DNA from: Opitutales bacterium
Lineage (GTDB): Bacteria > Verrucomicrobiota > Verrucomicrobiia > Opitutales > T3Sed10-336
Reading direction: 5' to 3'
DNA length: 49,814 nucleotides
NCBI GenBank assembly: GCA_007130045.1
Contig: SLTG01000064.1
Coordinates: 1-49,814 of the forward strand
Part shown: positions 5,998 through 21,218 of the stretch, piece after piece
Numbering within the stretch: position 1 is the first letter of the stretch
Layout of the letters: the number at the start of each line of letters is the position of its first letter
Made by a program: the position numbers and the translations under genes
The notes under the pieces: model-generated
The model's input: only the letters and a program-made list of their open reading frames with translations
What the model was told of the DNA's origin: nothing
Databases searched by the model: none

Positions 5998-7509
5998 TCA
6001 GTCCTGCCGCCAGTCATCGGTGCGAAAGGGGGCTGCGGGGAGCCCCGCGCCGTTGGAAAGTGTTGCTTCCGGGGCGTTGCGCCAGGCATAGCGAATAGCG
6101 ACCGGGGCGGGAACGTCATCGGAGATCAGGACAACCGAGTCGCCGGAGATGCTGGCGGTGGCAGGGAAGAAACGGCGATCCTCGCCCGCAAGTTCGAAGC
6201 CCCGTACCGTAACCGCGGTTGTCCGGATGCCTCCGGCTGTATTCGAAAAATGAACACGAACGGTTTCACCTTCAAAATCGGCGCCGGCGAACGCCGGCCC
6301 CGAGTCCTCTATCCCATGGCCGTAAGTGCGGTTCAATGCAAGCCGGGCGAGACGCCGTCCGACGGTGCTTTTGTCTCCTGGATGAATATCGTGCACGTCT
6401 CCCACGTCCAGGATAACCGCCTGCCCGGTGCCGGGAAGGTGAAGCGCCCGGCTCTGGGCCTCGCGCAGAAAAGCCCATGTGGTATCCCGGGGGCCTTGGG
6501 CGCGGAACTCCGCCAGTTGAACCCAATAAAACGGAAAATCTCCCTGCCGGAACACCCTCCGCCACCCGGTAATCAGGGCGGGGAACAGATCGCGATACTC
6601 CTCGTAACGACGGGCGTTGCCTTCGCCCTGGTACCAGATTGCTCCCCGAATACCATAAGGCACGAGCGGATGAATCATCCCGTTGTAAAGAAATGAAGGC
6701 GCATTGCGCAGTTGGTGAGGAGTGGGAGGCGAAGGCCGTTCACGAGTGAAAGGGTCACCAGCGATTGCAGCCGCCTCACGTTCTCTCCGCCATTCAGCGA
6801 GGTTTTCCTCGTAGGCCGCAAGGGTTCGACCAAGCAGATCCTTCCCCCGCTGCCGGATGGCGGCGAACGCTTCTTCATCGAGAGTGTCGGCATCGGTCCA
6901 GGCTTCTGCCACGGTTCCGCCCCAGGTGCTGTTAATAATCCCCACCGGTATGTGCAGCGCCTGGTGGAGGTCTCGGGCGAAGGCGTAAGCGACAGCGCTG
7001 AAACTGGAGACGCTTTCCCTCTGTGCGGAAACCCAGCGGCCGTCGATCTGATCGAGGGGTTCCGGAGTGGCCGCGCGCGAAACGTTGAATTCCCGGATAA
7101 GGGGCCATTGGGCCATTAATACCTCAAGGTCCGCGTCGTGGGACTGAGCCACGGTCCACACCATATTTGATTGACCGGAGGCCAGCCAGACTTCGCCGAC
7201 GAGAATGTCCGTAATCCGCACGGTCTCGTTGCCGGCGATAAGCATTTCCGCCGGCTCGGCGTTCGGCTCGAGGGCAGCCAGCGTCACCGACCAGCGGCCC
7301 TGCGGATCGGTTTCGGTGGAGACGGTTTGTCCGGCGAACGTCACGGTGATCTCCTCTCCCGGAACCGCCATTCCCCACACGGGGATGGGCTTGCCGTGTT
7401 GCAACACGGCGCCGTCCCGAAAGAGCGGCGCAGACGAAACCGCGGCGGAAAGAAGCGGCGCCACGAAAATCGTCTGGACGATAACAAGGAAAAAGGCTCG
7501 GATAATCAT
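5998..7509 (-). CDS. Secreted sialate O-acetylesterase
   Basis: A 503-residue SASA-family (SGNH hydrolase fold) esterase expected to remove O-acetyl groups from sialic acids or plant and algal glycans. An N-terminal signal peptide (hydrophobic stretch FFLVIVQTIFVAPLL, then AAVSSA) indicates export. The nucleophile Ser is in SGQSNMVW at about residue 115, the GAIWYQGEGN block lies near residue 285, and the Asp/His pair is in DVGDVHDIHPGDK near residue 373. The ATG at 7509 is chosen because it places the signal peptide at the N-terminus; the open frame upstream adds thirty residues with no signal character. It is transcribed alone on this strand. Confidence 0.93.
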   Translation of the reverse strand: MIIRAFFLVIVQTIFVAPLLSAAVSSAPLFRDGAVLQHGKPIPVWGMAVPGEEITVTFAGQTVSTETDPQGRWSVTLAALEPNAEPAEMLIAGNETVRITDILVGEVWLASGQSNMVWTVAQSHDADLEVLMAQWPLIREFNVSRAATPEPLDQIDGRWVSAQRESVSSFSAVAYAFARDLHQALHIPVGIINSTWGGTVAEAWTDADTLDEEAFAAIRQRGKDLLGRTLAAYEENLAEWRREREAAAIAGDPFTRERPSPPTPHQLRNAPSFLYNGMIHPLVPYGIRGAIWYQGEGNARRYEEYRDLFPALITGWRRVFRQGDFPFYWVQLAEFRAQGPRDTTWAFLREAQSRALHLPGTGQAVILDVGDVHDIHPGDKSTVGRRLARLALNRTYGHGIEDSGPAFAGADFEGETVRVHFSNTAGGIRTTAVTVRGFELAGEDRRFFPATASISGDSVVLISDDVPAPVAIRYAWRNAPEATLSNGAGLPAAPFRTDDWRQD

Positions 7510-7767
7510 ATCAATCTTTGTTGAAATCGTTTTATATTTCCCGGCATTCAGCGAATGCCCGCAGCATGGACCGTCCAACGGCGAAAAGCAACCTGTCATC
7601 CCTGGTAATTCGGGCCGTCGAACGGGAATCGATCACGCAGGGCTCGTTCGAAGATCCGCGGATTTTACGCATTTGCGGGGCTGCTTGATTTTGGTGCGCG
7701 ATCATCCGGAAAAGGAGTTTTAAGACGGTGGTCCGCACAATTCCCGACGATACACCGGGAATCAGGC
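7510..7767. other. Non-coding stretch between acetylesterase and sulfotransferase cluster
   Basis: Together with the terminator and the 130 bases after it, this forms a gap of about 420 bases without a convincing gene. Short open frames on both strands have no recognisable start context or protein features. The part nearest 7509 presumably holds the promoter of the acetylesterase gene; I could not pick out clear -35 and -10 boxes. Confidence 0.6.
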
Positions 7768-7803
7768 AAAATAAAAACGGCCGGCCCGGATCACCGGACC
7801 GGC
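7768..7803 (-). terminator. Rho-independent terminator ending the glycan cluster
   Basis: Read on the minus strand, a 10-bp stem with one mismatch and a four-base loop is followed directly by CGTTTTTATTTT. The arms are plus-strand 7780-7789 and 7794-7803. It lies about 130 bases past the stop of the last sulfotransferase gene and is oriented to end transcription of the minus-strand cluster. Confidence 0.8.
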
Positions 7804-7933
7804 GGAATCGGGATGTTATGATTCAACACATGTGTTCCGGTTGCGGCGCCAGCAACCTGTGCGGCCGGCATCGCGACGGGACTCAATATTGAGCTTTTTT
7901 GGGGAATCGGGACGACCTTCTCCGACCTTCGTT

Positions 7934-8686
7934 TCAGAATCCAGGTTCAATTCGATTGATCTCTTTTGCTTTCTGCTTGCACAATTCGAGAAAATCAAAA
8001 TCGATCGCATACCACCTCTTAATGTTCTCCATCGCCGTATCCTGAAGATTCCTATCGACGCTGTCGGGATTCCGGTGCGAGTTTACATTGTCATTGGGAA
8101 GCTCGATGCAATCGGGAAGTTCGAGCTTTAGACTTAATGTTTTTACGTCGTCGGAAAGCGACTCCTGGAAACCGATGAAAAAGATATCTCCGAGGCGTGA
8201 GAGGAAGTAATCGCGCGTGCCGAACCAACTCCAGTATGAATCCCTCACATGTTGGATGGACCGCATTGCGGCTTCGGCTTGTTCCCGGCGTGTGCGATCT
8301 TCGCCTGACAAAGCAATGGCCAACTCGTTTGGCGTTTTAAAGCGCTCGAAGGCGATCTTCTCATCGGCGCTCCATGGGGAATGGATTCTTGGCTGCCCCT
8401 GGCGCTGACGACTATAGAAGCCGCTCACGAAGCGCGTAACCGGATTCCGGAGAAAAAAGATCACGGCGTCGCCTCCTGGTATATCCGCCAGTATTCTTCG
8501 ATGCGGATGCAGTCGAATAAAGAACCGATCAGCGACCAAGTGAGGTTCCAAAGCCGATTTCACAGCGGTTCCCCCGGTTTTGCCAATGTGAAGAAAATGA
8601 AGGGTTTGTTTACCCTTTAACTTCAGCAAGGCGGATCGGATGGTCTGCTTGATCCGGAATTTACGATCTCCGTGGTTTATCGGCAT
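7934..8686 (-). CDS. Sulfotransferase, Sulfotransfer_2-like
   Basis: This 250-residue protein resembles carbohydrate sulfotransferases that move sulfate from PAPS to a sugar hydroxyl. The 5'-phosphosulfate-binding loop is HIGKTGGT at residues 33-40, in the FLHIGKTGGT form typical of the heparan 2-O-sulfotransferase/Sulfotransfer_2 group. The 3'-phosphate-binding region is the FFLRNPVTRFVSGFYSR segment near residues 75-92. No signal peptide or membrane helix is seen, so it should act in the cytoplasm on a precursor. It is the last gene of the minus-strand glycan cluster and is followed by a terminator. The base composition looks more AT-rich than the flanking genes, which may mean transfer. 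Confidence 0.8.
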   Translation of the reverse strand: MPINHGDRKFRIKQTIRSALLKLKGKQTLHFLHIGKTGGTAVKSALEPHLVADRFFIRLHPHRRILADIPGGDAVIFFLRNPVTRFVSGFYSRQRQGQPRIHSPWSADEKIAFERFKTPNELAIALSGEDRTRREQAEAAMRSIQHVRDSYWSWFGTRDYFLSRLGDIFFIGFQESLSDDVKTLSLKLELPDCIELPNDNVNSHRNPDSVDRNLQDTAMENIKRWYAIDFDFLELCKQKAKEINRIEPGF

Positions 8687-8785
8687 TTCGCCCCCTTATC
8701 ATGTTTCTCCAACCAACGGTCAAGCCGCCCTTTCGATTACCGTCGGAACGCAGGCGTGATCGCCCCGAGAAACTCCGCCATCAAA

Positions 8786-9619
8786 TCAGTCGATTCTCCG
8801 CGCGCTGGGCCCGAATTCCGGATCGTCTTTCCCCAGGAAGAATTCATCGATCACATTCGCTATATAATCGAGATCGTCCGGACTGAACAACCCCGCATAA
8901 CTCGACGCCCGAGTCTCACGCACCTTCGCGGAACGCGGCTCATTTGGGTCGGTTGGAGCCAAAACCGTTTCGGAATAGGCGGGCGATTCGGCGAGCATCT
9001 TCATATTCCCGGCGGAGCCCTCGTTGGCTGAAGCCGCAATCAATTGATCGTCCGGTTCTATGCCGAACGCCTCAATCACGTTTCGCAGAGTGCCCGGGGT
9101 ATCACGTTTAAGCTCTTCGTAAGAAAAAGACACGAAACGGGGAAGCTGTCTTCTGAGGTGGAGCCACATGTTATAGTAGCTCACCAGATGAAGGATTCCG
9201 CAGTAAGGATCGCGAATGAACTCCGATGGGGTCGCTTCAACAACGCGCCTCCGGTAGACGCGGTGGTGGTAGGCTGAGTTCAGGATCGCATAGAAATTTC
9301 GTGCCAGAAACACATAGGGAAGATTTCGAAGGAGCAAGGTGTCGAAATTCATGATTCCGAAATACGGCCGTCGGAAGTCGCCGCCCATGTGGGTCCAAAC
9401 GATTCGATGACGGAACCGCAGCTTCTTTTCCACCGCGAACACCTGCGGAACGTTTATCCGGTAATGCCTGGTCAGGTAGTCATCAACCATAAACCGAAGC
9501 CACGTTCTCCCTGATTTCGGGTAACTCACGCAAAAATACTTTTTCCGCGCCAGGCGAACGGACAATTTGCGTACGGGCGGAACATATTCGACTGAGCGTT
9601 TCTCATTCATCTCGTTCAA
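8786..9619 (-). CDS. Sulfotransferase, Sulfotransfer_1-like
   Basis: A 277-residue protein with the PAPS-binding loop YPKSGRTW at residues 33-40, in the SYPKSGxTW form of the classical Sulfotransfer_1 family. The expected 3'-phosphate-binding block appears as FLARNFYAILNSAYHHR rather than the usual RDPRD form, so this site is divergent. The rest is alpha/beta with a KxxxPGTLRNVIEAFGI region common in the family's C-terminal third. It is cytosolic by sequence. It lies between the beta-propeller gene (34 bases away) and another sulfotransferase of a different subfamily, implying a sulfated glycan product. The acceptor cannot be read from sequence. Confidence 0.8.
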   Translation of the reverse strand: MNEMNEKRSVEYVPPVRKLSVRLARKKYFCVSYPKSGRTWLRFMVDDYLTRHYRINVPQVFAVEKKLRFRHRIVWTHMGGDFRRPYFGIMNFDTLLLRNLPYVFLARNFYAILNSAYHHRVYRRRVVEATPSEFIRDPYCGILHLVSYYNMWLHLRRQLPRFVSFSYEELKRDTPGTLRNVIEAFGIEPDDQLIAASANEGSAGNMKMLAESPAYSETVLAPTDPNEPRSAKVRETRASSYAGLFSPDDLDYIANVIDEFFLGKDDPEFGPSARRID

Positions 9620-9653
9620 ATCTTAAAATTAGCCATTTATCTCGTGTGCGCTT

Positions 9654-10817
9654 TCAGGTTGCATGGAGAAACGCCTTGTGAGGTTCAAATCCGGGCGCCA
9701 TTCGGGGTGCTTTCACCTGATAGACAGGCTCACCCAATGCAGACGTAAGGCATTTGCGGATTTCGTCGGGCCTGCAATCTTCAGGCCCCTCAATGAAGAC
9801 GCCATCATCTCGAATAATCTGATATACCTGGGATGCGGGCAGAGGGAGCGCGGCCCGATTACGCCGCTCGCCGAATACAAAAATCTCTCCCCTACCCTTG
9901 AAGCGCTCCTTCCTGCTTCCCTCGAATGAAGACCCGACAAGCCACTCGCCATCGCTTCCGGCGATCCCGCGTGGAAACGCGCGCCGGCTCCGCCAAAAAT
10001 CCCCGTCAATGGCACCCTGTTCGTCAAACACACAACCATGACGGTCAGAGGCCTCCTTACAGGCAAACGTGTCGCAACCGATGAATCCACCGTTGGTCAA
10101 GAACAGGTCATGCACTCCCCGATTCCGGTAGCGGAATCCCTCGATGGAGCGGGCCTCGGCGTCGAACACACCAAGGAGCGATCCATCGCCGGCGGCATAG
10201 GCCACAAAGAGGATGGTTGAACCATAGACGCTCACACTGTTCAGGTGATGATTATCATAGATGATAGGAGATCCGAACGAATCGAAAAACACCGGGATCT
10301 CTTCAACAATCTCACCTGTATCCGCCGAAATCCGCAGAATCGTATCCCGCCCCGTATTCGCAACGAACAAGACCCCATCCCGCAGAAATATCTGGTGAAT
10401 CCGCGCGTTGCTTTCGGTAACGTCCAGCGCGTAGATCTCCTCAAAACCGAATGACCGCCCGGGTTCATGCAAAGCAGACGCGTCCCCTCGCAGAAGACAA
10501 CTTCGTCGTCCGAGCCACGCCGCGACAAAAAGGTGCCTGGAGTCGAAAGCAATCCCATATGCGGGAAAACTGAAAATACGACGAATCGTTCCCCGGCGGT
10601 ATTCCAGTAGCCCGCGCTCGGTCGTAACGAAGTACGCCCCCTCAACGATCCCCGAATCAAATGTTTCGATGGTCTTCGCCTGGTTCCTGACCGCCAAAGC
10701 CGAACTTCGTGCTCTTGCATCTCGGAAGGCGTGACGTGCCGCTCGAAACGGAGAGAGTGCTGCTTTTCCCGTGCTTACCACGCCGCCCCTTTCAGTCCTG
10801 ATTCGGATTGATCCCAC
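9654..10817 (-). CDS. Beta-propeller (quinoprotein-like) protein of unknown function
   Basis: I recognise the fold type but not a named function. The 387 residues contain repeated short strands with Gly and aromatic turns (for example YFVTTERGLLEYRRG, VLFVANTGRDTILRI, TILFVAYAAGDGSLLGV and GEWLVGSSFEGS), as in six- or seven-bladed propellers. A DNHHLNSVSV motif and a later PRGIAGSDGEW block resemble, from memory, propeller proteins that sit beside sulfotransferases in other bacteria (TIGR03032/DUF4915-like). No signal peptide is seen. The start is uncertain: GTG at 10817 has GGAGAT upstream, while a GTG at 10781 follows AAAGGGG. The gene sits between a glycosyltransferase and two sulfotransferases. 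Confidence 0.65.
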   Translation of the reverse strand: MGSIRIRTERGGVVSTGKAALSPFRAARHAFRDARARSSALAVRNQAKTIETFDSGIVEGAYFVTTERGLLEYRRGTIRRIFSFPAYGIAFDSRHLFVAAWLGRRSCLLRGDASALHEPGRSFGFEEIYALDVTESNARIHQIFLRDGVLFVANTGRDTILRISADTGEIVEEIPVFFDSFGSPIIYDNHHLNSVSVYGSTILFVAYAAGDGSLLGVFDAEARSIEGFRYRNRGVHDLFLTNGGFIGCDTFACKEASDRHGCVFDEQGAIDGDFWRSRRAFPRGIAGSDGEWLVGSSFEGSRKERFKGRGEIFVFGERRNRAALPLPASQVYQIIRDDGVFIEGPEDCRPDEIRKCLTSALGEPVYQVKAPRMAPGFEPHKAFLHAT

Positions 10818-11007
10818 TCAACGGTATCTCCGCGAGGCTTACCCTCCACCCGTCCGGTTGATCCGCCGCGATCCGTGCGGAAAAAAAACCGAAGGTCGAG
10901 GTCATGTTGACACCTGAAGACATAACGCAGGGTCCGAGGAATCGATTGATTCGCCACACTTCATAAAGGAAGGCCCTCACCGTTGCGCAAAGTTTCCGCT
11001 CTGGCAA
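10792..11007 (-). CDS. Possible small ORF in the glycan cluster (doubtful)
   Basis: The frame remains open from just after the stop of the upstream glycosyltransferase, in the same frame, to a TGA at 10792 that lies just before the alternative propeller start. The encoded stretch (about 70 residues from a TTG) contains VWRINRFLGPC, GVNMTSTFGFF and DGWRVSLAEIPL, which look protein-like rather than random. No ribosome-binding site precedes the TTG and I recognise no family. It may be a real small protein, a remnant of a larger gene, or chance. Confidence 0.3.
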   Translation of the reverse strand: MPERKLCATVRAFLYEVWRINRFLGPCVMSSGVNMTSTFGFFSARIAADQPDGWRVSLAEIPLSGINPNQD

Positions 11008-11058
11008 ATCAAATGTCGAAGGCCCTCGAAGATTCCGCCGCTCCTCTCCCTGCCGGGC

Positions 11059-12150
11059 TTACGACAACGCCAATGCACTACGAAGTCTCTCCGGGTAGGT
11101 CGCGGGATTGTGCCTGAGGCGCAGACGGGCCGAAAGCGATCGGGTAGCAGCGTCAAGGTTCTCATTTTCGAATCCTTGATATATGATTCGAGCAAGCGAT
11201 AAATCCGTGTCGGCCCCCGGCACAAACATCGAAAAATGTTCTTCGTAAATTTCGTCCAGGCCGTCGAGAGTAAACGAGAACGCGGGGACCCCGGCCAACA
11301 GCGCTTCGATCAGGGAACGCGGAAGCCCTTCACGCCGGCTGGTCAGAATCACGGCGTCGATAAACCCGAGAACGTTTCCGACCGGCGTCACATGACCGGC
11401 CTCCACAACGGCGTCTTGCAGTCCGAGGTTTGTCACTTCCGCTCTCAATCCTTCCAGATACCCGGATTCCGCGTCCCCGGCCAGAACCAACCCCCAAGGC
11501 ACCCCGCTCAGTTCCCGAAGATGCGCGAGCACCCGTACGGCCTGAACCTGGTTTTTCCTGTCGCCAATCTTGCCTATGTATCCAAGCCACCGTTGGACGC
11601 CGGGGCACCGGGTTCGCCATTCCGGTACACCGTTTAGATCCTTACCGGGAACACTTATCGGGTTGTACAGCACGGTCAAGCGATCACCGGGCACTCCCTG
11701 ACCGGCAAGGCCGCCGCGAATTGCATCACTTACACAAAGCACCCTGTCGATGCGGTCGAGGCGGTATTGTTTCGCCTTTGGGCCGACAGCGATCAAATCG
11801 CGAACGACGGCCGCTGATTTGGCTCCAAGCCGCGATGCCAACCGCCGGGCGTGAGGCGCCCACCACATTTCATTCGCAATAACGACGTCAAACCCCTCGT
11901 CCCGAATCAATTCCAACGCCCGGTCCACTTTGAATGAAAAGAAAAGCCGCTCCGCCCACTTTCTCCATTCCGGCAACCGGACGATCGTGAACGGGACCCC
12001 CATTTCCCGGCATCGCTCCGTAAACGACCCCTCCTCGCCGCAGAGCACCCTGACAGTACAGCCCGACTCGCGCAAAACCGGCAGCGCGGCCAAAAGGCTG
12101 CTCTTGGATCCTCCTGTGCCGGCGCTTGTCTGTATAAAAAGAATCCGCAT
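11059..12150 (-). CDS. GT4-family glycosyltransferase
   Basis: A 363-residue GT-B fold glycosyltransferase that should transfer a sugar from a nucleotide donor to a glycan on the cytoplasmic side. The N-terminus MRILFIQTSAGTGGSK has the glycine-rich acceptor loop. The C-terminal half holds LGYIGKIGDRKNQ, LVLAGDAESGY and the GT4 E-x7-E motif in SRREGLPRSLIEALLAG. The ATG at 12150 is chosen because it begins the first Rossmann strand; the frame runs 18 residues further upstream to 12204. It lies in the minus-strand glycan cluster, 129 bases after a sulfotransferase gene. Sugar and acceptor are unknown. Confidence 0.85.
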   Translation of the reverse strand: MRILFIQTSAGTGGSKSSLLAALPVLRESGCTVRVLCGEEGSFTERCREMGVPFTIVRLPEWRKWAERLFFSFKVDRALELIRDEGFDVVIANEMWWAPHARRLASRLGAKSAAVVRDLIAVGPKAKQYRLDRIDRVLCVSDAIRGGLAGQGVPGDRLTVLYNPISVPGKDLNGVPEWRTRCPGVQRWLGYIGKIGDRKNQVQAVRVLAHLRELSGVPWGLVLAGDAESGYLEGLRAEVTNLGLQDAVVEAGHVTPVGNVLGFIDAVILTSRREGLPRSLIEALLAGVPAFSFTLDGLDEIYEEHFSMFVPGADTDLSLARIIYQGFENENLDAATRSLSARLRLRHNPATYPERLRSALALS

Positions 12151-12279
12151 TAAGTCATCCGGTTTGATGAAGACGTCTTTCCCATTTGTACATCGAAAAC
12201 TCAAAGATCATTGGCAAAACCGAACGCTACGACCACCGATGCTCAACCGTGACTTTCCGCCGCGCACCCAAAAACGCCG

Positions 12280-13086
12280 TCACCCCCGTCTGCGCATCTC
12301 CATCCGTCGCCACAACCGTCCGCAAAACAAATCGATCATTTTGATTTCGAGCTTGGTCAGGCGCCGGCGCCAGCTTTCGTCCAGAACGATGCTCGAGTCC
12401 TTCACAAGCTTCATCCGGTTGCCTCCAAGGCTGTGAAGGGTGACATCCCCCCAATCGCTCAAGACCGTCTTGCTGAATTCCAGCCCCACCGCTTCGAACA
12501 CGATGCGAAGCGATTCTTCCGGATTCCGGCAGAAATCCTCATAGGACACCCACAACGCGGCGAGGTCCCGGTCGCACACGGTCATGATCCGCCAATTCCG
12601 CGCCAGATAGCCGAGAATGGACTGAATCAGACGCCGCTCCCTCCGTTTCCACGAACTTGCCTGGCAGCGCGGTGATTTGTACAAATGGAGCGGGATGAGA
12701 TCGACTCCCGGAAGCGTCCGGATTCTCTTCAGCCTGCTGCTGCGCCGCGACGACTCGATAATCACTTTCGCTCCGCCGACCGCCTGAATCGCCCGATACA
12801 GAACGAGGTTGTCTTCAGCGAAGCGTCTGGAGTTGGAAGAGCCGACATCCAACTGTTCCAGACTTTTCCCTTTACGGGCGAGTTCCTCGTTCACAGCCCC
12901 CCAAAACGGACACTTGAGAAGACTCTCCGCGCCGCAGCAGCAAGGAGTCCCTCGTTGCAGGACAACGCCGAGTTTCTTGAGACTTCCCACGTTGATTACT
13001 TCCGGGTGGGCGCCAAGGACTCGGTTCATAAGGGTGGTGCCGCTATGCCTGCAGCCTGCAATATAAAGCACTTTTATTGTTTGCAC
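12280..13086 (-). CDS. Sulfotransferase, Sulfotransfer_3-like
   Basis: This 268-residue protein begins MQTIKVLYIAGCRHSGTT: the P-loop-like PAPS site GCRHSGTT is at residues 11-18, in the GxxRSGTTLL style of the Sulfotransfer_3 group, with His where Arg is usual. The following AHPEVINVG matches the normal 'HPev..vGE' context. A Cys-rich loop (GTPCCCGAESLLKCPFW) at about 46-62 is unusual and might bind metal. The C-terminal region ends with ExxWRRRLTKLEIKMID, which aligns in spirit with the family end. The start is GTG at 13086. It is the third sulfotransferase type in this cluster. Confidence 0.75.
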   Translation of the reverse strand: MQTIKVLYIAGCRHSGTTLMNRVLGAHPEVINVGSLKKLGVVLQRGTPCCCGAESLLKCPFWGAVNEELARKGKSLEQLDVGSSNSRRFAEDNLVLYRAIQAVGGAKVIIESSRRSSRLKRIRTLPGVDLIPLHLYKSPRCQASSWKRRERRLIQSILGYLARNWRIMTVCDRDLAALWVSYEDFCRNPEESLRIVFEAVGLEFSKTVLSDWGDVTLHSLGGNRMKLVKDSSIVLDESWRRRLTKLEIKMIDLFCGRLWRRMEMRRRG

Positions 13087-13171
13087 GGGTGACGGAAAGC
13101 ATGGCCGGACGCAGTTCTCCGCACAAGACCAATTGGAGCAAAAAATGCGTTTGTCGACGCGGATACACTTC

Positions 13172-14749
13172 TTATCGAGGAGCGAAAGGCCCTTCGGATT
13201 GTTCGAGCGCGCTGCGAACCAAGGCTTCTTCGCAGTGTTCGAGACCCCATCTAAACGCCTTGACGAGTAATCTTTCGATCGCCCGTTCGAGCCATTTTTC
13301 CCCCTCCCGGAGCGATCGAACCGCCTTCACGTCACTATCGATCCAGTAAATCCGCTCCGGCCGATCGGGATTCACCAGCACGTTTCCCAAGTGAAGGTCC
13401 TTCAACGAAACCCGGCCTCGGACCATCGTTTTGAGGTCGCCGGCAACCGAAAGAAGAAAGCGCTTTCGCACACCGGAATCCCGGCAATCACGCAAGAACC
13501 GGTGGCCGCTCACGGTTCCGTCGCAGTAATCGATTACGAGGAAAGACTCGAATTCGGAGAACGGGTTGACGGCGAAGCCCGAGCAGTGGTGACCGGGAAC
13601 CAGAAGGCCCGCTCTTCTCAGTATCCGGAGTCCGCGAATCTCCCTCGCAGCCCTCGATCTTCCCCAGTAGCGCCGCCAATAATCGACGGGAAGCGCGTCC
13701 GGCTTGATCCATTTCCAAAGAAGAAAGCCCCGTCGATCGCGGCGCCGGACGACCTCGAGCCAGGCGCTCCGCCTTTTTAGATGATTCACGCGGCGGTGGG
13801 CGCGCGCCTTCGCGCGAACATCGATCGAGCGTGGTCCGATCAATAGCCAGAGTTCCCGCCTGCCTTCGCCTTTCGGTTCGATCCAACGAAGCCGTATGGA
13901 ACCTCTCGATGATACCATCGCGCCATTTCGGTCACCCAGCCGAATTCCCATCCGCAATCGGGATGGCCGGATACCGCGTTCGCGACAGTAGGCCAGGATG
14001 AAAAGAGACCGATGGGCGGCATCGACGCATCGCAACTCGCGCGATGCGCGCTGAAACCGCTCCAAATCGCCTCGAACGCGCGCGAGCGGAAGGCGCCACC
14101 AGAATCGCACGCCTTCCATATCGATAAGAAACGGCTCTCCGGAATCATCGACGAGGATATTTGCCGCCTTGAGATCGCGGTGGGAGCATTTCATTGCGTG
14201 AAGGCGGCCGATCAGACGCCCGAGCCGGATTGCCAGCCGCGCCCGGTCGCCATCCCAACGGTCCAGCGCCACTGCGCTTTGTCGCTGCTCCATGACGAAG
14301 TAGCTCGATGAGAGAACCCGAAAAGTGCGTTTCTCGCACGCGGCGACCGGAACCGCGGTGCGCACCCCCGCTGCTTCCAGGCGAAACGCTTTGAAGAATG
14401 CCCGAAGACCGGGAGACTTCCGAAAGAACGCCTTGAGGACCTCGCTCCACTTGCGGGCCGGATTCCGTTTGATGACAAAACCGCCGGAAGCAGCCGTCTT
14501 CGACATCCCCTTATCACGAAGGACAACGCCGCTTTCATCGATTACCGCATTAGGATCATCCAACAGTTCGTTCAGGTCCGGACCGGAAAAACTGCTCCGA
14601 ACATACCAGATAAGCCCTCCGCGGCGAACAAGTTGAAACTCTTTCTTCTCCGGAGGAGAGAGCCACGCGGAAATCAATGCTCTAAGGCGGCCCCGATTAT
14701 TCATGTCCAACAATGAAATAAAGCGAAAACGTGGATCTTTACACGACAA
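13172..14749 (-). CDS. Tandem WaaP/Kdo-type lipopolysaccharide kinase (two kinase domains)
   Basis: A 525-residue protein with two protein-kinase-like lipopolysaccharide kinase domains in a row. Domain 1 (about 36-255) has VIKR with Lys94, a candidate Glu125, the catalytic loop HRDLKAANIL at 190-199 and the metal-binding Asp210 (IDMEG). Domain 2 (about 295-510) has LLWKWIK around Lys346, Glu370 in a helix, the loop KDLHLGNVLV at 450-459 and Asp471 (IDSD). Both halves therefore keep the catalytic Asp and Asn and the metal Asp. WaaP and KdkA use this fold to phosphorylate heptose or Kdo of the lipopolysaccharide core; two sugars could be phosphorylated here. The start is either TTG at 14749, close to the previous gene, or ATG at 14704. 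Confidence 0.82.
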   Translation of the reverse strand: MSCKDPRFRFISLLDMNNRGRLRALISAWLSPPEKKEFQLVRRGGLIWYVRSSFSGPDLNELLDDPNAVIDESGVVLRDKGMSKTAASGGFVIKRNPARKWSEVLKAFFRKSPGLRAFFKAFRLEAAGVRTAVPVAACEKRTFRVLSSSYFVMEQRQSAVALDRWDGDRARLAIRLGRLIGRLHAMKCSHRDLKAANILVDDSGEPFLIDMEGVRFWWRLPLARVRGDLERFQRASRELRCVDAAHRSLFILAYCRERGIRPSRLRMGIRLGDRNGAMVSSRGSIRLRWIEPKGEGRRELWLLIGPRSIDVRAKARAHRRVNHLKRRSAWLEVVRRRDRRGFLLWKWIKPDALPVDYWRRYWGRSRAAREIRGLRILRRAGLLVPGHHCSGFAVNPFSEFESFLVIDYCDGTVSGHRFLRDCRDSGVRKRFLLSVAGDLKTMVRGRVSLKDLHLGNVLVNPDRPERIYWIDSDVKAVRSLREGEKWLERAIERLLVKAFRWGLEHCEEALVRSALEQSEGPFAPR

Positions 14750-14754
14750 TTCGC

Positions 14755-15900
14755 CTAAATCCGCCGCCTCTCTCGAGGCGCTGTCGACGCCAGCGATTCA
14801 AAAAGTTCAATGAATTCGCGTAATTCGCTTTCGAGACGGCGGCTGAGGACGGATCGGGTAATCTGATGTGGGTCGCAGTCCAGATTTTCGAGAAAGCTCA
14901 CAGCGGCGGCGCGATCGGCTTGAGGATCCAAGTTCCCCAGGATGTATCCGGTCATCCCCTCATGAACCAGTTCGGATGCGCCATTGTGAACGGTGGTAAT
15001 GACCGGACAACCACACGCCAGGGCTTCAAGCGTGGAATTGGAGAACGGGTCGTAAAGAGTGGGCAGGACCATGCAGTCGGCGGCGCGGTAGTAATCGGCG
15101 ATCGCGTCCACCGAGCCGAGAAAGCGAACGGAATCCGCCAGGCCCTCACGCCGGATCCGGCGCCCGTAAGGCGCGGCGTGCCCGCGGCCGGCGACGAGGA
15201 TAAGGACGGGCTTGCCGGCCGCGGAAAACCGGCGTTTGGCTTCCGCGGTGATCGCCAGCGCCTCCCCGAGCCCCTTGCGTTCGAACCCGCTGCCGGAAAA
15301 GAGCAGTATCAACGCATCCTCCGGAAGCCCCAGCGGCTTGCGCAGTTCGGTTTTCGGGCATTCGGCGGGGAAAAACACTTTCTCGTCGTATCCGTTGTGA
15401 ATGACAGTGACCTTCGGTTCGATATCGGGATACGCCCGGGCGATATCCTTTTTGACCATGCGGGAGTTGGCCACCACCGCACGGGCGGACCTCATTCCCT
15501 TGTACTCCATCCTCGGCGCCAGCCAGTGCCAGGGGTTAAGGCGCCACAACGGCGAGCACCCATAGCGCCGACGCACCTGACGCAAGTGAACGCCGTCGCC
15601 GGCGCGGTAGACGTCGCACTCGGGACCCGGCTCCATGCTGAAGACCAAATTGCCCGGCCGCTTCAGCCCCAGCCGATCCACGGCGCGCACGTAGCGCCAT
15701 GATCGCCACCATGGCGGGCCGCCGGCTCCACCGATCGAAACTCCGTTCCAGGATGAGCCGGCCGCAAGCCGGACAGTATTCCAGTAGTGACGAAAAGACT
15801 CCTCGAAACGCTCGGCGACACGTTCGGCGCCGCCGATCCCTCCGGGTTTTCTCCTCAGGATAAAGAGTGTATCGACTCCGATCGGCCGGGATTCTTTCAC
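14755..15900 (-). CDS. WaaG-like GT4 lipopolysaccharide core glycosyltransferase
   Basis: A 381-residue GT4 enzyme resembling WaaG (RfaG), which adds the first hexose to the heptose region of the lipopolysaccharide core. Evidence is the CDVYRAGDGVHLRQVRRRYG segment, the NSRMVKKDI block, VIHNGYDE, LFSGSGFERKG and the donor-binding PTLYDPFSNSTLEALACGCP with the GT4 E-x7-E spacing. The N-terminal GGIGGAERV loop fits the acceptor side. The start is GTG at 15900. The stop is six bases before the tandem kinase start, so the two are likely coupled, which supports a lipopolysaccharide core function for both. The exporter permease lies 99 bases upstream on the same strand. Confidence 0.87.
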   Translation of the reverse strand: MKESRPIGVDTLFILRRKPGGIGGAERVAERFEESFRHYWNTVRLAAGSSWNGVSIGGAGGPPWWRSWRYVRAVDRLGLKRPGNLVFSMEPGPECDVYRAGDGVHLRQVRRRYGCSPLWRLNPWHWLAPRMEYKGMRSARAVVANSRMVKKDIARAYPDIEPKVTVIHNGYDEKVFFPAECPKTELRKPLGLPEDALILLFSGSGFERKGLGEALAITAEAKRRFSAAGKPVLILVAGRGHAAPYGRRIRREGLADSVRFLGSVDAIADYYRAADCMVLPTLYDPFSNSTLEALACGCPVITTVHNGASELVHEGMTGYILGNLDPQADRAAAVSFLENLDCDPHQITRSVLSRRLESELREFIELFESLASTAPRERRRI

Positions 15901-15999: not shown

Positions 16000-17217
16000 T
16001 TACTCGTACCGGAGCGCTTCGATCGGGTCGAGACGGGCGGCTTTTCTCGCCGGGTAGAAGCCGAAGAAAATCCCCACCATCGCGCTGAAAAGAAAGGCGT
16101 AGGCGATCGCGTTATGGGATAGGTATACGGGCCAGTCGGCATAGAACGCCAGCACGTAGCTGACGCCGATTCCTGTAAGGATACCGATTCCTCCCCCGAG
16201 GCAGCTCAACAAAATCGCCTCGACAAGGAACTGCCGAAGGATGTCGCGGTTTCGCGCGCCGAGCGCGATCCGGATGCCGATTTCCCTCGTTCGTTCGGTC
16301 ACGCTCACGAGCATAATGTTCATGATGCCGATTCCGCCGACCAGCAGTGAAATACCGGCGATCGCACCCAGCAGGAACGTCATGACCCGCGAAGTTTCGG
16401 TCGCCGCGCGCGCGACCTCCTCCTGGGTCTGCACGGTGAAATCGTTATCCTGGCCCGGACCGAGACCGTGCCGTTCGCGAAGGAGGTCGGTAATCTTCTG
16501 CCGAGCGACCGGCATGAGTTCGGCGCTGTAAACCTGGGTATTGATCACCATGGCGTGAGAACGGCCGGAAATGTACCGGAAAGCGGTGGTGTATGGAACG
16601 AGAATGATGTCATCCTGCACCGATCCCATCAGCGACATTCCCTTGGTCTGCAAAACTCCGATGATCTCAAGCGGCATGCCGCGCACCCGAATGATCGCCC
16701 CGATCGGATCGGCGCCTTCGAAGAGCTCCTCGACGATAGTCTGCCCCACGACGGCCACCATGTTCGCGCGAAGCACGTCTTCCTCGTCGAACATACGCCC
16801 GTACTCCATCGGCCACTGGCGAATCTGAAGATAGTCGGACGATTGGCCGTAAATTCGTGTAAACCAATTTCGGTTGCCATAAGAGACCTGCCGCTGCGAG
16901 CGCACTTCCGGACTGGCGGCAATCACCTCGGGAATCTCCTCGTGAATCGCCAGGGCGTCTTCGACGGTCAGGGTATTCGCGCTCCCTCCTCCAATGCTCA
17001 CACCGCCGAGCGAACGGCTGCCCGGAAACACGAGCACGACGTTTTGCCCCAGCCGCGTGACCTGTTCCTCGACCTCCGCCCGGGCGCCGTTTCCGATGCT
17101 GACGGTTGTGATCACCGCCGCAACACCGATCACGATCCCGAACGCGGTTAGCAACGAACGCATGCGGTTGCGTCGCAGTGCCCGCAGCGCGACCAGGAGG
17201 ATCATTTCGGGTCTCAT
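16000..17217 (-). CDS. MacB-type ABC transporter permease (FtsX/MacB_PCD)
   Basis: A 405-residue permease with one N-terminal membrane helix (about 20-41), a large periplasmic MacB_PCD domain, and three C-terminal helices (about 280-385) forming the FtsX domain. Family blocks are visible: NRMRSLLTAFGIVIGVAAVI, the GIGIMNIMLVSVTERTREIG segment and the closing PARKAARLDPIEALRYE. In MacAB-TolC systems it works as a mechanotransmitter rather than a classical pump, driving peptides, lipids or drugs from the periplasm through TolC. Here the ATPase is a separate protein, so the split permease/ATPase form applies. Its ATG overlaps the ATPase stop (ATGA). Confidence 0.94.
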   Translation of the reverse strand: MRPEMILLVALRALRRNRMRSLLTAFGIVIGVAAVITTVSIGNGARAEVEEQVTRLGQNVVLVFPGSRSLGGVSIGGGSANTLTVEDALAIHEEIPEVIAASPEVRSQRQVSYGNRNWFTRIYGQSSDYLQIRQWPMEYGRMFDEEDVLRANMVAVVGQTIVEELFEGADPIGAIIRVRGMPLEIIGVLQTKGMSLMGSVQDDIILVPYTTAFRYISGRSHAMVINTQVYSAELMPVARQKITDLLRERHGLGPGQDNDFTVQTQEEVARAATETSRVMTFLLGAIAGISLLVGGIGIMNIMLVSVTERTREIGIRIALGARNRDILRQFLVEAILLSCLGGGIGILTGIGVSYVLAFYADWPVYLSHNAIAYAFLFSAMVGIFFGFYPARKAARLDPIEALRYE

Positions 17218-17975
17218 TGGACGGACTCCTCCTCGGCGACGAGAACGGGAAGCTTTTCTTTTTCGTCCGACGCCGCCAGACGATCCTCGACCGGATCATC
17301 CCGGACGATCCGCCCGTCCCGCATGACGATGGTCCGCTTGGCAAACCGTCCGATATCCTGTTCGTGCGTGACCATGATCAATGTGATTCCATGATCGTTC
17401 AGTTTCTGAAAAATCTCCATTATTTCAAGGCCGGTGCGCGTATCGAGATTACCCGTCGGTTCGTCGGCCAGCAGGATGGTTGGTTCCGTGACCAGCGCCC
17501 TCGCGATCGCCACCCGCTGCTGCTGACCTCCGGAAAGCTGGCTTGGGTGGTGATCGGCCCGGTCGGACAGACCCACCTGGTCCAGCGCCTCGCTCGCGCG
17601 GCGTTGAATCTCCCGCAGGCTGAGGCCGTCGCTCTTGTACATGAGCGGGAGCTCGACGTTTTCGAGGGCGGAGGTGCGCGACAGCAGATTAAAACTCTGA
17701 AAAACGAAACCGATCTTCCGGTTCCGAACCGCGGCGAGACGGTCACGGGAAAGCTTTGCCACGTCCTCGCCTTCGAGCAGGTACCGCCCGCGGCCCGGCC
17801 GGTCCAGGCAGCCGATCACATTCATCAATGTGGATTTCCCCGACCCGCTCGGCCCCAGGATGGCGGCGAACTCGCCGGCTTCAAGGACAAGAGAAAGCCC
17901 GCGCAAGGCGGGCACGTCCACCTCGCTCCCGAGATGGTAGGTCTTGAAAATATCCTCCAGGACAACGACGGCCAT
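17214..17975 (-). CDS. MacB/LolD-type ABC transporter ATP-binding protein
   Basis: The 253-residue ATPase has Walker A GPSGSGKST near residues 38-46, the Q-loop, the signature LSGGQQQR and Walker B ILLADEPTGNLD followed by the H-loop MVTHEQD. The LSGGQQQRVAIARAL form is typical of the LolD/MacB/FtsE subfamily serving FtsX-type permeases. The ATG at 17975 is preferred over a TTG three codons upstream. It lies between the membrane-fusion gene (five bases) and the permease gene (four-base overlap), so the three are one operon. Confidence 0.96.
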   Translation of the reverse strand: MAVVVLEDIFKTYHLGSEVDVPALRGLSLVLEAGEFAAILGPSGSGKSTLMNVIGCLDRPGRGRYLLEGEDVAKLSRDRLAAVRNRKIGFVFQSFNLLSRTSALENVELPLMYKSDGLSLREIQRRASEALDQVGLSDRADHHPSQLSGGQQQRVAIARALVTEPTILLADEPTGNLDTRTGLEIMEIFQKLNDHGITLIMVTHEQDIGRFAKRTIVMRDGRIVRDDPVEDRLAASDEKEKLPVLVAEEESVQ

Positions 17976-17980
17976 ATGAC

Positions 17981-19177
17981 TCAATACTGCGCCGGCGAAG
18001 GTCCGAACAGGCTTCCACCGCGCCGGCCGCTGTCGGCCGTCGCCGTGATATCGATGCCGGTCACCAGAACGTCTCCTTCGTCCAACCCCTCGATAATCTC
18101 CGTGCGCACCCCGTCGCTCATTCCCGCGCGGACCGGCACGGCCTCGATCTCCCCGCTCGGATTCCCGCCGGCGAGGCGATAAACCGTACGCCAGTTCCCC
18201 TCCTCGTCACTTTCGGGAAGGTCGGGCGATTCAGGGCGGATACTGTCGGGCAATCGTGTGCGCAGCGCCAAATTGCGCACCCTGAGCACATCGTCTTTCC
18301 GGTCGGTGATGATTGTTACGGTCGCGGTCATCCCGGGCTTGAGTTTGCGATCGGGATTCGCCACTTCGATCACCGTATCGTAAGTGACGACATTCTGCTC
18401 GACGATCGGCGCGTTGCGCACCTGAACGACCTTTCCGACAAATCTCTCATTGGGATAGGCATCCACGTTGAATTCGACCGTCTGCCCGTCCCGGATGCCT
18501 CCGATATCGGCTTCCGGAACGTGGGAATTGATCTGCATGCGGGTCAGATCCTTGGCGATCGTAAAGAGGATCGGAGCGGTCATGCTGGCGGCGACGGTTT
18601 GGCCGACGTCGACGTTCCGTGAAATCACGATCCCGTCAATCGGGGAATGGATCGTGCAACGGGCAAGTTCCGACGCCGCGCGCTCCTTCGCGTGGGTCCG
18701 GATTCTGAGCGTCGCCTCGGCCTGTTTATGATTTGCTCTCGCCTGGTCGAGTTCGGATTGCGAAACGAGTTGGCGTTCCCGGAGCTGCTCGAGCCGGGCG
18801 ACCTCGAACCCGGCAAGTTCGAGGGCGGCCTCCGCGGCGGCAACCTGCCCCTCGGCCTCCTGAAGATCGGCCTCGAACGTCGAAGTCTCCAACCGGGCAA
18901 GCATCTGTCCCCTTTCGACTTCGGAATTAAAATCGACGTAAATCTCGTCGATTATCCCCGAGACCTGCGACCCCACCTCGACGTTGATGACCGGATTCAA
19001 CTGGCCGGTGGCGGACACCGTCCGCCGTATCTCGCCGCGGTCGACGCTCGCGGCGTTCAGCGCCGGACGATCGGCGCCGCCCCCAAGAAACGCGGCACCC
19101 GCCCAAGCGATACCGGCCAGGAACACGACCACCAGGCACCATTTAATCCATGATCTTTGATTCGTTGATTCAGACAT
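17981..19177 (-). CDS. MacA-like periplasmic membrane fusion protein
   Basis: A 398-residue HlyD/RND-type adaptor. An N-terminal membrane helix (about residues 12-32, WCLVVVFLAGIAWAG) anchors it in the inner membrane. The lipoyl half-motifs follow: GQLNPVINVEVGSQVSGI before, and ARCTIHSPIDGIVISRNV after, a helical hairpin of roughly residues 85-175. Then come beta-barrel and membrane-proximal segments (KLKPGMTATVTI). MacA-type adaptors form a hexameric channel joining the MacB permease to TolC. The C-terminal tail DSGRRGGSLFGPSPAQY is extra and unstructured. The gene is followed directly by its ATPase and preceded by the TolC gene. Confidence 0.94.
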   Translation of the reverse strand: MSESTNQRSWIKWCLVVVFLAGIAWAGAAFLGGGADRPALNAASVDRGEIRRTVSATGQLNPVINVEVGSQVSGIIDEIYVDFNSEVERGQMLARLETSTFEADLQEAEGQVAAAEAALELAGFEVARLEQLRERQLVSQSELDQARANHKQAEATLRIRTHAKERAASELARCTIHSPIDGIVISRNVDVGQTVAASMTAPILFTIAKDLTRMQINSHVPEADIGGIRDGQTVEFNVDAYPNERFVGKVVQVRNAPIVEQNVVTYDTVIEVANPDRKLKPGMTATVTIITDRKDDVLRVRNLALRTRLPDSIRPESPDLPESDEEGNWRTVYRLAGGNPSGEIEAVPVRAGMSDGVRTEIIEGLDEGDVLVTGIDITATADSGRRGGSLFGPSPAQY

Positions 19178-19333
19178 TATTGTAACGCAGGCAAAAGGTA
19201 ACCCATATTCGGTCCATTGACAACAAATCGGCGAATGTGTTCAAAATTCATTCGGCACAAGCACGGCAAGATTGAAGCCGTGCCATTCGGGTTGTCCCGC
19301 GATTCGTGGTCACGCCTCGCCGGGTCTCACGTC

Positions 19334-21007
19334 TCAGAATTCCTCCGGAGTCATTAAAGAAAACGTCGGCGGCGGAAGGTTCCGATCACCAGGGCCGCCG
19401 ATTCCACGACGTTTCAGAAGCGAGCCTTCGAGCCGGTAAAGATCGATGAGAGCCTTGCGGTAGTCAATGATCGCTCCAACCTCCGCGATCTGGGACTCGA
19501 GCAGGTCGCGCTGCGCCAGCGAAATGTCGAGCACGGTGGACAAGCCGACATCAAACTTCTCGGTCTCGGCGCGAAAGGCTTCCTCCTGAAGCCGCCGCGT
19601 CGCCGCGCTCGCATCGATCTGCTCCTTCGCGCGCAGCGTCTCGGTGTACGCGGAGCGCACGTCGAGCTCGACCAACTGCACGAGATTCCTGATGCTTTCC
19701 TCGGCCTGCCGGTGGGTGGCGCGCGCGCGGCGATGATTGGCATGGCTTTGACGGTTGCCCAACGCATACTCCGCCCGCACGCCCACTGTCGCGTCGTAAC
19801 CGTCGCCGTCGACATTGCGGAATCCCTCGCCAAACGAATTCGCGAATCCGGTCTTGCCCAGGGTGACGAAGAAATCGAGCCGCGGAAGAAGGCCGTTGCG
19901 GGTCTGAACGACGCTGAGCCCCTGCCCGGCAAGCTGCAGGTGGGATTCGTGGATCTCGGAACGCAACGAGAGCGCCACCTGGACGTGGTCACGGACGTCG
20001 TCGAGTTCGACGTCAGGTACGGACGGTTCATCGAGCACCTCGATCTTCCGATCCCAGCCATCAATGCCGGGCTCCGGGTTCAGGAATCGAATCAGTTGCA
20101 GACGCAGCAGTTCGACGGAACTCCTGGCGTTGATAAGGGCCTGGCGGCGCAGAGCGACCTCGGCCTCGGCCGCGGCGATTTCCGTCTCAGCCAATTGCCC
20201 TACCTCGATGCGCTCACGCGTGGCATCCAACTGCTGCTCCGCCACCGCCACCGACTCCTCAAAGATTTCGACTTCACGGCGTGCGAGCACGTAATCCCAG
20301 TAGGTGGATTCGACGTCGGCAAGCAGGGCCTCGGCAAAACCGCGCAGTTCGAACTCCGAAGCGAGGGTGTCCAGCCGGGCCTGACGCACCTGGGCGAGGT
20401 TCACATCGAGCCCGCGTCCCTGCAGAAGCGCCTGGGTCACCGTCACAAAACCCCGAACGCGGTCCGTCGGATCCCCGTCGCCGCGGGGGTCGCGGTAAGA
20501 CTGCGAGACACCGATCTCCAAATCCGTACCTGTGGGAAAAAACTGGCCCACACCCGCGCTGAAATTGAACCTCTCGCTTTCGTCCGTCAGGGTGTCGTCC
20601 AGTGTCGGAGAAAGGAATTCGTCTCTCCGTCGCTCAGCCGAAGCCTGCCCAAAAACAACGGGGTCGAACGTGGCGCGCTCCAATTCCTCAAACGTCCCCG
20701 CAATGATGGGATTCATCCTCTGTACACGCAGCGAGCGATTGTGCTCAAGGGCCATCATCACCGCATCTTCCCGCGAAATCCGAAGAGGACCCTCGGCTTC
20801 GACGGCCGGAATCGGTTCAGTGTATTGAAATGCCGTCCGCTCCCGTTGTTGATCGGATGCCCCGACATTCCCGGTCGGATCGGTCGCGCCGGATCCGAGC
20901 GTGCCCGGAACAGAAGGAGATTCGTAGGCTCGATCCGAAGTCGAACGGCAGGATACGAAACCGAGCGTAGCGAGAACGAGAATACAGAAAAGTCGGCGGT
21001 GTTTCAT
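19334..21007 (-). CDS. TolC-family outer-membrane efflux lipoprotein
   Basis: A 557-residue outer-membrane factor. The signal peptide ends in the lipobox FVSC, so the mature protein should start at a lipid-modified Cys. Two OEP repeats follow, each with long amphipathic helices (for example EVEIFEESVAVAEQQLDATRE and the ETEKFDVGLSTVLDISLAQR region), which form the periplasmic barrel of TolC-like channels. The ATG at 21007 is chosen because it places the lipoprotein signal first; upstream codons to 21067 do not fit. It is the first gene of the exporter set; a gap of 156 bases separates it from the adaptor. Confidence 0.93.
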   Translation of the reverse strand: MKHRRLFCILVLATLGFVSCRSTSDRAYESPSVPGTLGSGATDPTGNVGASDQQRERTAFQYTEPIPAVEAEGPLRISREDAVMMALEHNRSLRVQRMNPIIAGTFEELERATFDPVVFGQASAERRRDEFLSPTLDDTLTDESERFNFSAGVGQFFPTGTDLEIGVSQSYRDPRGDGDPTDRVRGFVTVTQALLQGRGLDVNLAQVRQARLDTLASEFELRGFAEALLADVESTYWDYVLARREVEIFEESVAVAEQQLDATRERIEVGQLAETEIAAAEAEVALRRQALINARSSVELLRLQLIRFLNPEPGIDGWDRKIEVLDEPSVPDVELDDVRDHVQVALSLRSEIHESHLQLAGQGLSVVQTRNGLLPRLDFFVTLGKTGFANSFGEGFRNVDGDGYDATVGVRAEYALGNRQSHANHRRARATHRQAEESIRNLVQLVELDVRSAYTETLRAKEQIDASAATRRLQEEAFRAETEKFDVGLSTVLDISLAQRDLLESQIAEVGAIIDYRKALIDLYRLEGSLLKRRGIGGPGDRNLPPPTFSLMTPEEF

Positions 21008-21218
21008 GGTGTTCACTCTATGATTAAGCCTCGGACATTCATGCACCGCGGGAAGAAATACCCGCAAGTAAATGAATATGAAGAGATCAATCGAATGGAA
21101 AACCCCCGGCCGGTCAAATACGAACCCGAGGAATTCCCGCGATCGATTGACATTCCACCGTCGATTTCCCGTTTTTCATTCGTGACATCTCCGGTCAAAC
21201 CGGTAGGAGTTTGAAACA

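Follow-up and report, generated by a model that had tools for sequence, protein, structure and literature searches.

Genes at the Locus

What might be built by a gene cluster that combines glycosyltransferases, a kinase, and several sulfotransferases? We analyzed such a cluster in a window of 49,814 nucleotides, which is the full length of contig C109 in the 3.4-Mb draft genome of an Opitutales bacterium. Seven open reading frames (ORFs), all on the minus strand, occupy positions 7934-15900. They encode two family-4 glycosyltransferases (GT4a and GT4b), one two-domain kinase (KIN), three sulfotransferases (STb1, STb2, and STb3), and one propeller-like protein. Transcription runs from GT4a through KIN, STb3, GT4b, the propeller-like protein, and STb1 to STb2, across intergenic gaps of 5, 85, 75, 241, 34, and 99 bp. 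No strong terminator lies inside the cluster, while an intrinsic terminator on the same strand closes it at 7780-7803; its 10-bp stem has nine G-C pairs and is followed by a T tail, and the hairpin (7803-7780) has a folding energy of -22.5 kcal/mol (z -3.1). All six proteins that have a Pfam family passed the gathering cut-off. These results agree with the initial annotation of this DNA, which had recognized seven co-directional genes ending in a terminator and had read them as including two GT4s, a tandem Kdo/WaaP-type kinase, and sulfotransferases from three families.

The genome probably belongs to the soda-lake Opitutales family T3Sed10-336/Verruconatronaceae, in which the genus g__SLOW01 has been placed and which is reported as abundant in alkaline soda lakes (PMC13274419). 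Our comparison set comprised seven other genomes of the family and 285 other genomes sampled from the class.

The cluster begins with GT4a (14755-15900; 381 aa), a WaaG-like enzyme (PF13692, 85.6 bits, over the cut-off). A phmmer search aligned it with residues ~80-322 of WaaG/RfaG, and most of its other matches start after residue ~128. A profile made from GT4a and its class neighbors—the alignment also takes in two more distant GT4s from the family—matched Escherichia coli WaaG nearly end to end (residues 14-353), with most other strong matches falling mainly in the C-terminal domain. GT4a thus resembles WaaG over both GT-B domains; no WaaG equivalog was among its best 25 NCBIfam matches. 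The second glycosyltransferase, GT4b (11059-12204; 381 aa), scored 56.6 bits to PF00534, also over the cut-off, and alignment with a homologue from the family makes the ATG at 12150 its more likely start.

KIN (13172-14749; 525 aa) matches PF06293 in two stretches, with 77.3 bits against a cut-off of 21.3. The Lys, catalytic Asp/Asn, and metal Asp positions are retained in the alignments of both its N-domain (about 13895-14749) and its C-domain (about 13172-13894), so KIN is a member of the Kdo/WaaP superfamily by score and by intact kinase residues. The initial annotation had tied this kinase to WaaP, a label that we reject because the true WaaP/RfaP equivalog of this genome sits on another contig, C14 (255.9 bits to the heptose(I) kinase family NF011703, whose curated equivalog threshold is 170 bits). 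The NCBIfam matches of KIN do not include NF011703, and KIN scores 54.8 bits to the KdkA Kdo (3-deoxy-D-manno-octulosonic acid) kinase family NF002475, below the curated cut-off of 142. KIN is an additional enzyme.

Each of the three sulfotransferases passed the cut-off of a different Pfam family: STb3 (12280-13086; 268 aa) that of Sulfotransfer_3 (PF13469, 34.8 bits, cut-off 27), STb1 (8786-9619; 277 aa; alternative start possible at the ATG at 9610) that of Sulfotransfer_1 (PF00685, 40.9 bits, cut-off 22), and STb2 (7934-8686; 250 aa) that of the carbohydrate sulfotransferase-type Sulfotransfer_2 (PF03567, 34.4 bits, cut-off 22). In their translations we could read a 5' loop of the type that goes with 3'-phosphoadenosine 5'-phosphosulfate (PAPS) in all three (CRHSGTT, SYPKSGRT, and HIGKTGGT), and they can be assigned to the PAPS-dependent sulfotransferases on both grounds. 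The best matches in the Protein Data Bank (PDB) are SULTs for STb1 and tyrosylprotein sulfotransferases for STb3, both weak. Distant STb1 relatives in the class occur in mixed gene contexts that say nothing about function. In one class relative, an STb1-like sulfotransferase is part of a 613-aa ORF (L138:8530-10371), the N-terminal part of which looks glycosyltransferase-like.

The remaining protein (9654-10817; 387 aa) had no match in Pfam, NCBIfam, or PDB sequences and no relative in the 285 class genomes. Its single-sequence structure model is poor (predicted local distance difference test score 42), and the fold matches listed for it, mostly beta-propellers, come from unrelated families at template modeling scores of about 0.3. 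The beta-propeller named in the initial annotation is therefore plausible only: the fold matches lean that way, but the model is of low confidence and no family matches.

Conservation and Relatives

How widely is the cluster shared? KIN is absent from all seven other family genomes. When the family loci were retrieved, the only other cluster genes found were STb1 and GT4b, as a pair, and a single distant homologue of STb3 (33% identity over 257 aa; L095:4884-5726 in genome G005). The pair is the only recurring part of the cluster and is kept together in G006, the soda-lake metagenome-assembled genome (MAG) Opitutales bacterium CSSed165cm_470 (identical contig SLOW01000304.1); at its locus L104, the STb1 homologue is 69-70% identical and the adjacent GT4b homologue 48% identical. 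A scan of named genomes returned one soda-lake MAG for STb1 and no match for KIN. Co-conservation of the seven genes in relatives, the test that the initial annotation had set for itself, thus fails, both for KIN in the family and for the propeller-like protein in the class.

Directly upstream of the cluster is a conserved macAB-type efflux operon (16000-21067), comprising a MacB permease, an ATPase, an HlyD protein, and an outer-membrane factor. In the sister genome G004, whose macB is 86% identical to that of the window, the gene after macB, at the place where the cluster begins here, is metH-like as judged by eye from the first part of its sequence. Codon usage in the cluster is atypical compared with other genes of the window (Mann-Whitney P = 0.0003; P = 0.0007 for GC content at third codon positions). 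Because the kinase is absent from the family genomes, a metH-like gene occupies the site in G004, and codon usage is atypical, we conclude that the cluster is an accessory, strain-variable locus. A possible, separately assembled counterpart within the family is found in G005 (L095:245-11941), where an ortholog of MsbA (68% identical to that of the genome studied here) heads four sulfotransferases, three GT4s, and two kinase-type genes, one of them Kdo-family just over the cut-off and the other kinase-like with no Pfam match.

Relatives of KIN elsewhere in the class (L038-L046) are tandem kinases of 460-540 aa. Like KIN, they fuse two kinase domains and have WaaG-like or heptosyltransferase genes nearby; unlike KIN, they carry the shared domain at the C-terminus. 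The N-domain of KIN matches this C-terminal domain (up to 131 bits), whereas the only match of its C-domain is to a stand-alone kinase from genome G142 (L038:7095-7997; 30.9 bits). Judged by these matches, KIN is rearranged, with the shared domain at the N-terminus and joined to a different second domain. A GT4a homologue lies within about 2 kb of the kinase in five of the seven closest relatives (E values 4e-43 to 4e-25; loci L040-L044 in G108, G045, G061, G036, and G266). Two Opitutales genomes (G040 and G186) have a tandem kinase, more distant than these, encoded between a fusion of LpxL with a family-9 glycosyltransferase (GT9) and a GT9 heptosyltransferase (Pfam-verified in G040). Because these kinases adjoin either WaaG-like GT4 genes or LpxL-GT9 and heptosyltransferase genes, the tandem-kinase family is tied to synthesis of the lipopolysaccharide (LPS) core.

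LPS and PAPS Genes in the Same Genome

Does the genome have what a sulfated-LPS locus would draw on, namely an LPS core pathway and PAPS synthesis? Both are found. WaaA is present, as are two GT9s: a stand-alone protein whose nearest family is heptosyltransferase I, and an LpxL-GT9 fusion that comes nearest to heptosyltransferase II. The best match of its MsbA is TIGR02203, below the cut-off, and LptD is encoded in the window (29420-31504). PAPS supply exists, because cysC, cysD, and cysN lie on contig C113 and a CysH-like gene is also present (the CysH-like and CysN calls were made by inspection). The initial annotation had expected PAPS to come from outside the window.

The fusion of an LpxL-type lipid A acyltransferase with a GT9 heptosyltransferase recurs as an ORF of 638-671 aa, in this genome on contig C86 (L139:8834-10750) and elsewhere at L140, L141, L045, and L046; both domains were verified with Pfam in L139 and L045, and the other three are similar ORFs. 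In the window, 41429-43231 encodes a transporter of the citrate/sodium-sulfate symporter type that carries two TrkA-C domains and may take up sulfate.

We also considered whether gene order around cysC could prove an LPS-sulfate operon. A GT9 precedes cysC in the genome studied here, and in the family genome G007 cysC comes after the end of an MsbA-like gene. These adjacencies are weak evidence, because other cysC genes of the family have different upstream neighbors and cysC has a conserved element of its own. Directly 5' of the GTG start in all seven cysC genes compared (L050 10200-10270 and six family homologues), this element reads roughly ACTTGC, followed by TNAATCTTTAGTA some 7 nt ahead of the GTG, and resembles a promoter giving a near-leaderless start.

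Proposed Function and Alternatives

What, then, does the cluster do? We favor the reading that it is an accessory module for a short, polyanionic, LPS-borne oligosaccharide carrying both sulfate and phosphate, to which we assign a probability of about one-half. Its parts are familiar, their combination is unusual, and the system is not new in kind. Under this proposal, GT4a and GT4b, working in the cytoplasm, would lengthen a short oligosaccharide carried by the lipid A-core, and KIN would phosphorylate core sugars on top of the separate housekeeping RfaP. STb1, STb2, and STb3 would then transfer sulfate from PAPS made by the cysC/cysD/cysN products, perhaps to three different positions, with STb1 and GT4b probably acting on the same sugar. 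MsbA and Lpt would export the finished LPS, sulfated and phosphorylated, along with its lipid A, and this route would account for the cluster having no polymerase, flippase, or ATP-binding cassette (ABC) exporter of its own. We infer that all seven products serve one shared molecule, that this molecule is LPS, and that the sulfate is placed on particular acceptor sugars within it.

The initial annotation had proposed a core or other surface glycan with both phosphate and sulfate. The LPS-type neighbors of the kinase relatives, the WaaG match, and the core and cysC/cysD/cysN genes support that proposal in part, but the seven genes are not co-conserved and KIN, which falls below both the RfaP and the KdkA equivalog cut-offs, is not WaaP. 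Our own reading draws on the same evidence and also on the STb1-GT4b pair kept in G006 and the MsbA-headed sulfotransferase locus of G005. The lack of co-conservation and the low equivalog scores of KIN weigh against it. So do the GT4 sequence families, which leave the substrate unfixed; the sulfotransferase families, which include enzymes for small molecules and proteins; the propeller-like protein, for which the mechanism has no assigned role; and the GT9-cysC adjacency, which is not conserved and says little.

Could the cluster instead tailor a capsule, an exopolysaccharide, or a secreted glycan that bears sulfate, with polymerization and export genes elsewhere? Glycosyltransferases and several sulfotransferases also occur together in exopolysaccharide clusters such as the Clr-regulated one of Sinorhizobium meliloti, with 13 glycosyltransferases, three sulfotransferases, and nodP2Q2 (PMC5498481). 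The window contains a Polysacc_synt_2 sugar-nucleotide gene (36101-37975), and in one family genome a sulfotransferase lies inside a polysaccharide-type locus (L103). However, neither the seven genes nor the flanking genes scanned include Wzx/Wzy- or ABC-type polymerase, flippase, or export genes (Wzc included for the cluster), and pairing of a Kdo/WaaP kinase with a WaaG-like glycosyltransferase is LPS-type in the class relatives. We regard a capsule or exopolysaccharide as possible but doubtful. Nor do we think it likely that the cluster is a loosely assembled accessory island whose surface-modification genes serve more than one pathway. Such an island would fit a set in which only STb1-GT4b recurs, the atypical codon usage, metH at the same place in the sister genome, and gaps of up to 241 bp, but not so readily the single strand uninterrupted by a strong terminator or the independent assembly of a like mix of functions in G005. 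A third alternative, in which small molecules or proteins are the sulfotransferase substrates and the glycosyltransferase and kinase genes serve an unrelated one, is improbable: the nearest structures are SULT-type for STb1 and tyrosylprotein sulfotransferases for STb3, but these weak matches reflect superfamily membership, characterized Sulfotransfer_2 members (the family of STb2) act on carbohydrates, and the partner of STb1 in G006 is a glycosyltransferase.

How does the proposed LPS module compare with described systems? A WaaG-like GT4 followed directly by a Kdo/WaaP-superfamily kinase recalls the enterobacterial waa core locus, with its WaaG glucosyltransferase and WaaP heptose kinase. 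In contrast to that locus, the kinase here has two domains and scores below the RfaP cut-off, a true RfaP is encoded elsewhere, sulfotransferases are added, and the locus is accessory. A literature search for LPS sulfation in Verrucomicrobiota returned nothing relevant; in the papers searched, sulfated LPS was found for rhizobia, and by analogy theirs is the closest described chemistry. There, LpsS is the sulfotransferase proposed to act on LPS, and NodPQ supplies its PAPS (Cronan and Keating 2004, as relayed in PMC5498481 and PMC6192434). As far as these accounts go, the likeness lies in a PAPS-dependent sulfotransferase proposed for LPS and dedicated PAPS genes elsewhere in the genome. The present locus differs in that sulfotransferases of three Pfam families are clustered with GT4 and kinase genes and in that sulfate on LPS is a prediction.

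If the LPS reading is true, this soda-lake family varies the charge of its LPS through exchangeable sulfotransferase and kinase genes, which would affect the binding of metals, the adsorption of phages, and tolerance of salt and pH. The three uncharacterized sulfotransferases and the rearranged double kinase would then be new objects for experiments. Much more tentatively, the family may repeatedly assemble accessory loci that render its LPS core strongly polyanionic, in which a double kinase with swapped domains and sulfotransferases from several families place phosphate and sulfate at separate positions, as a lineage-specific adaptation of the outer membrane to high salt and pH. Beyond the terminator, 334 bp downstream of the cluster and on the same strand, lies a SASA (sialate O-acetylesterase-like) gene (5998-7599).

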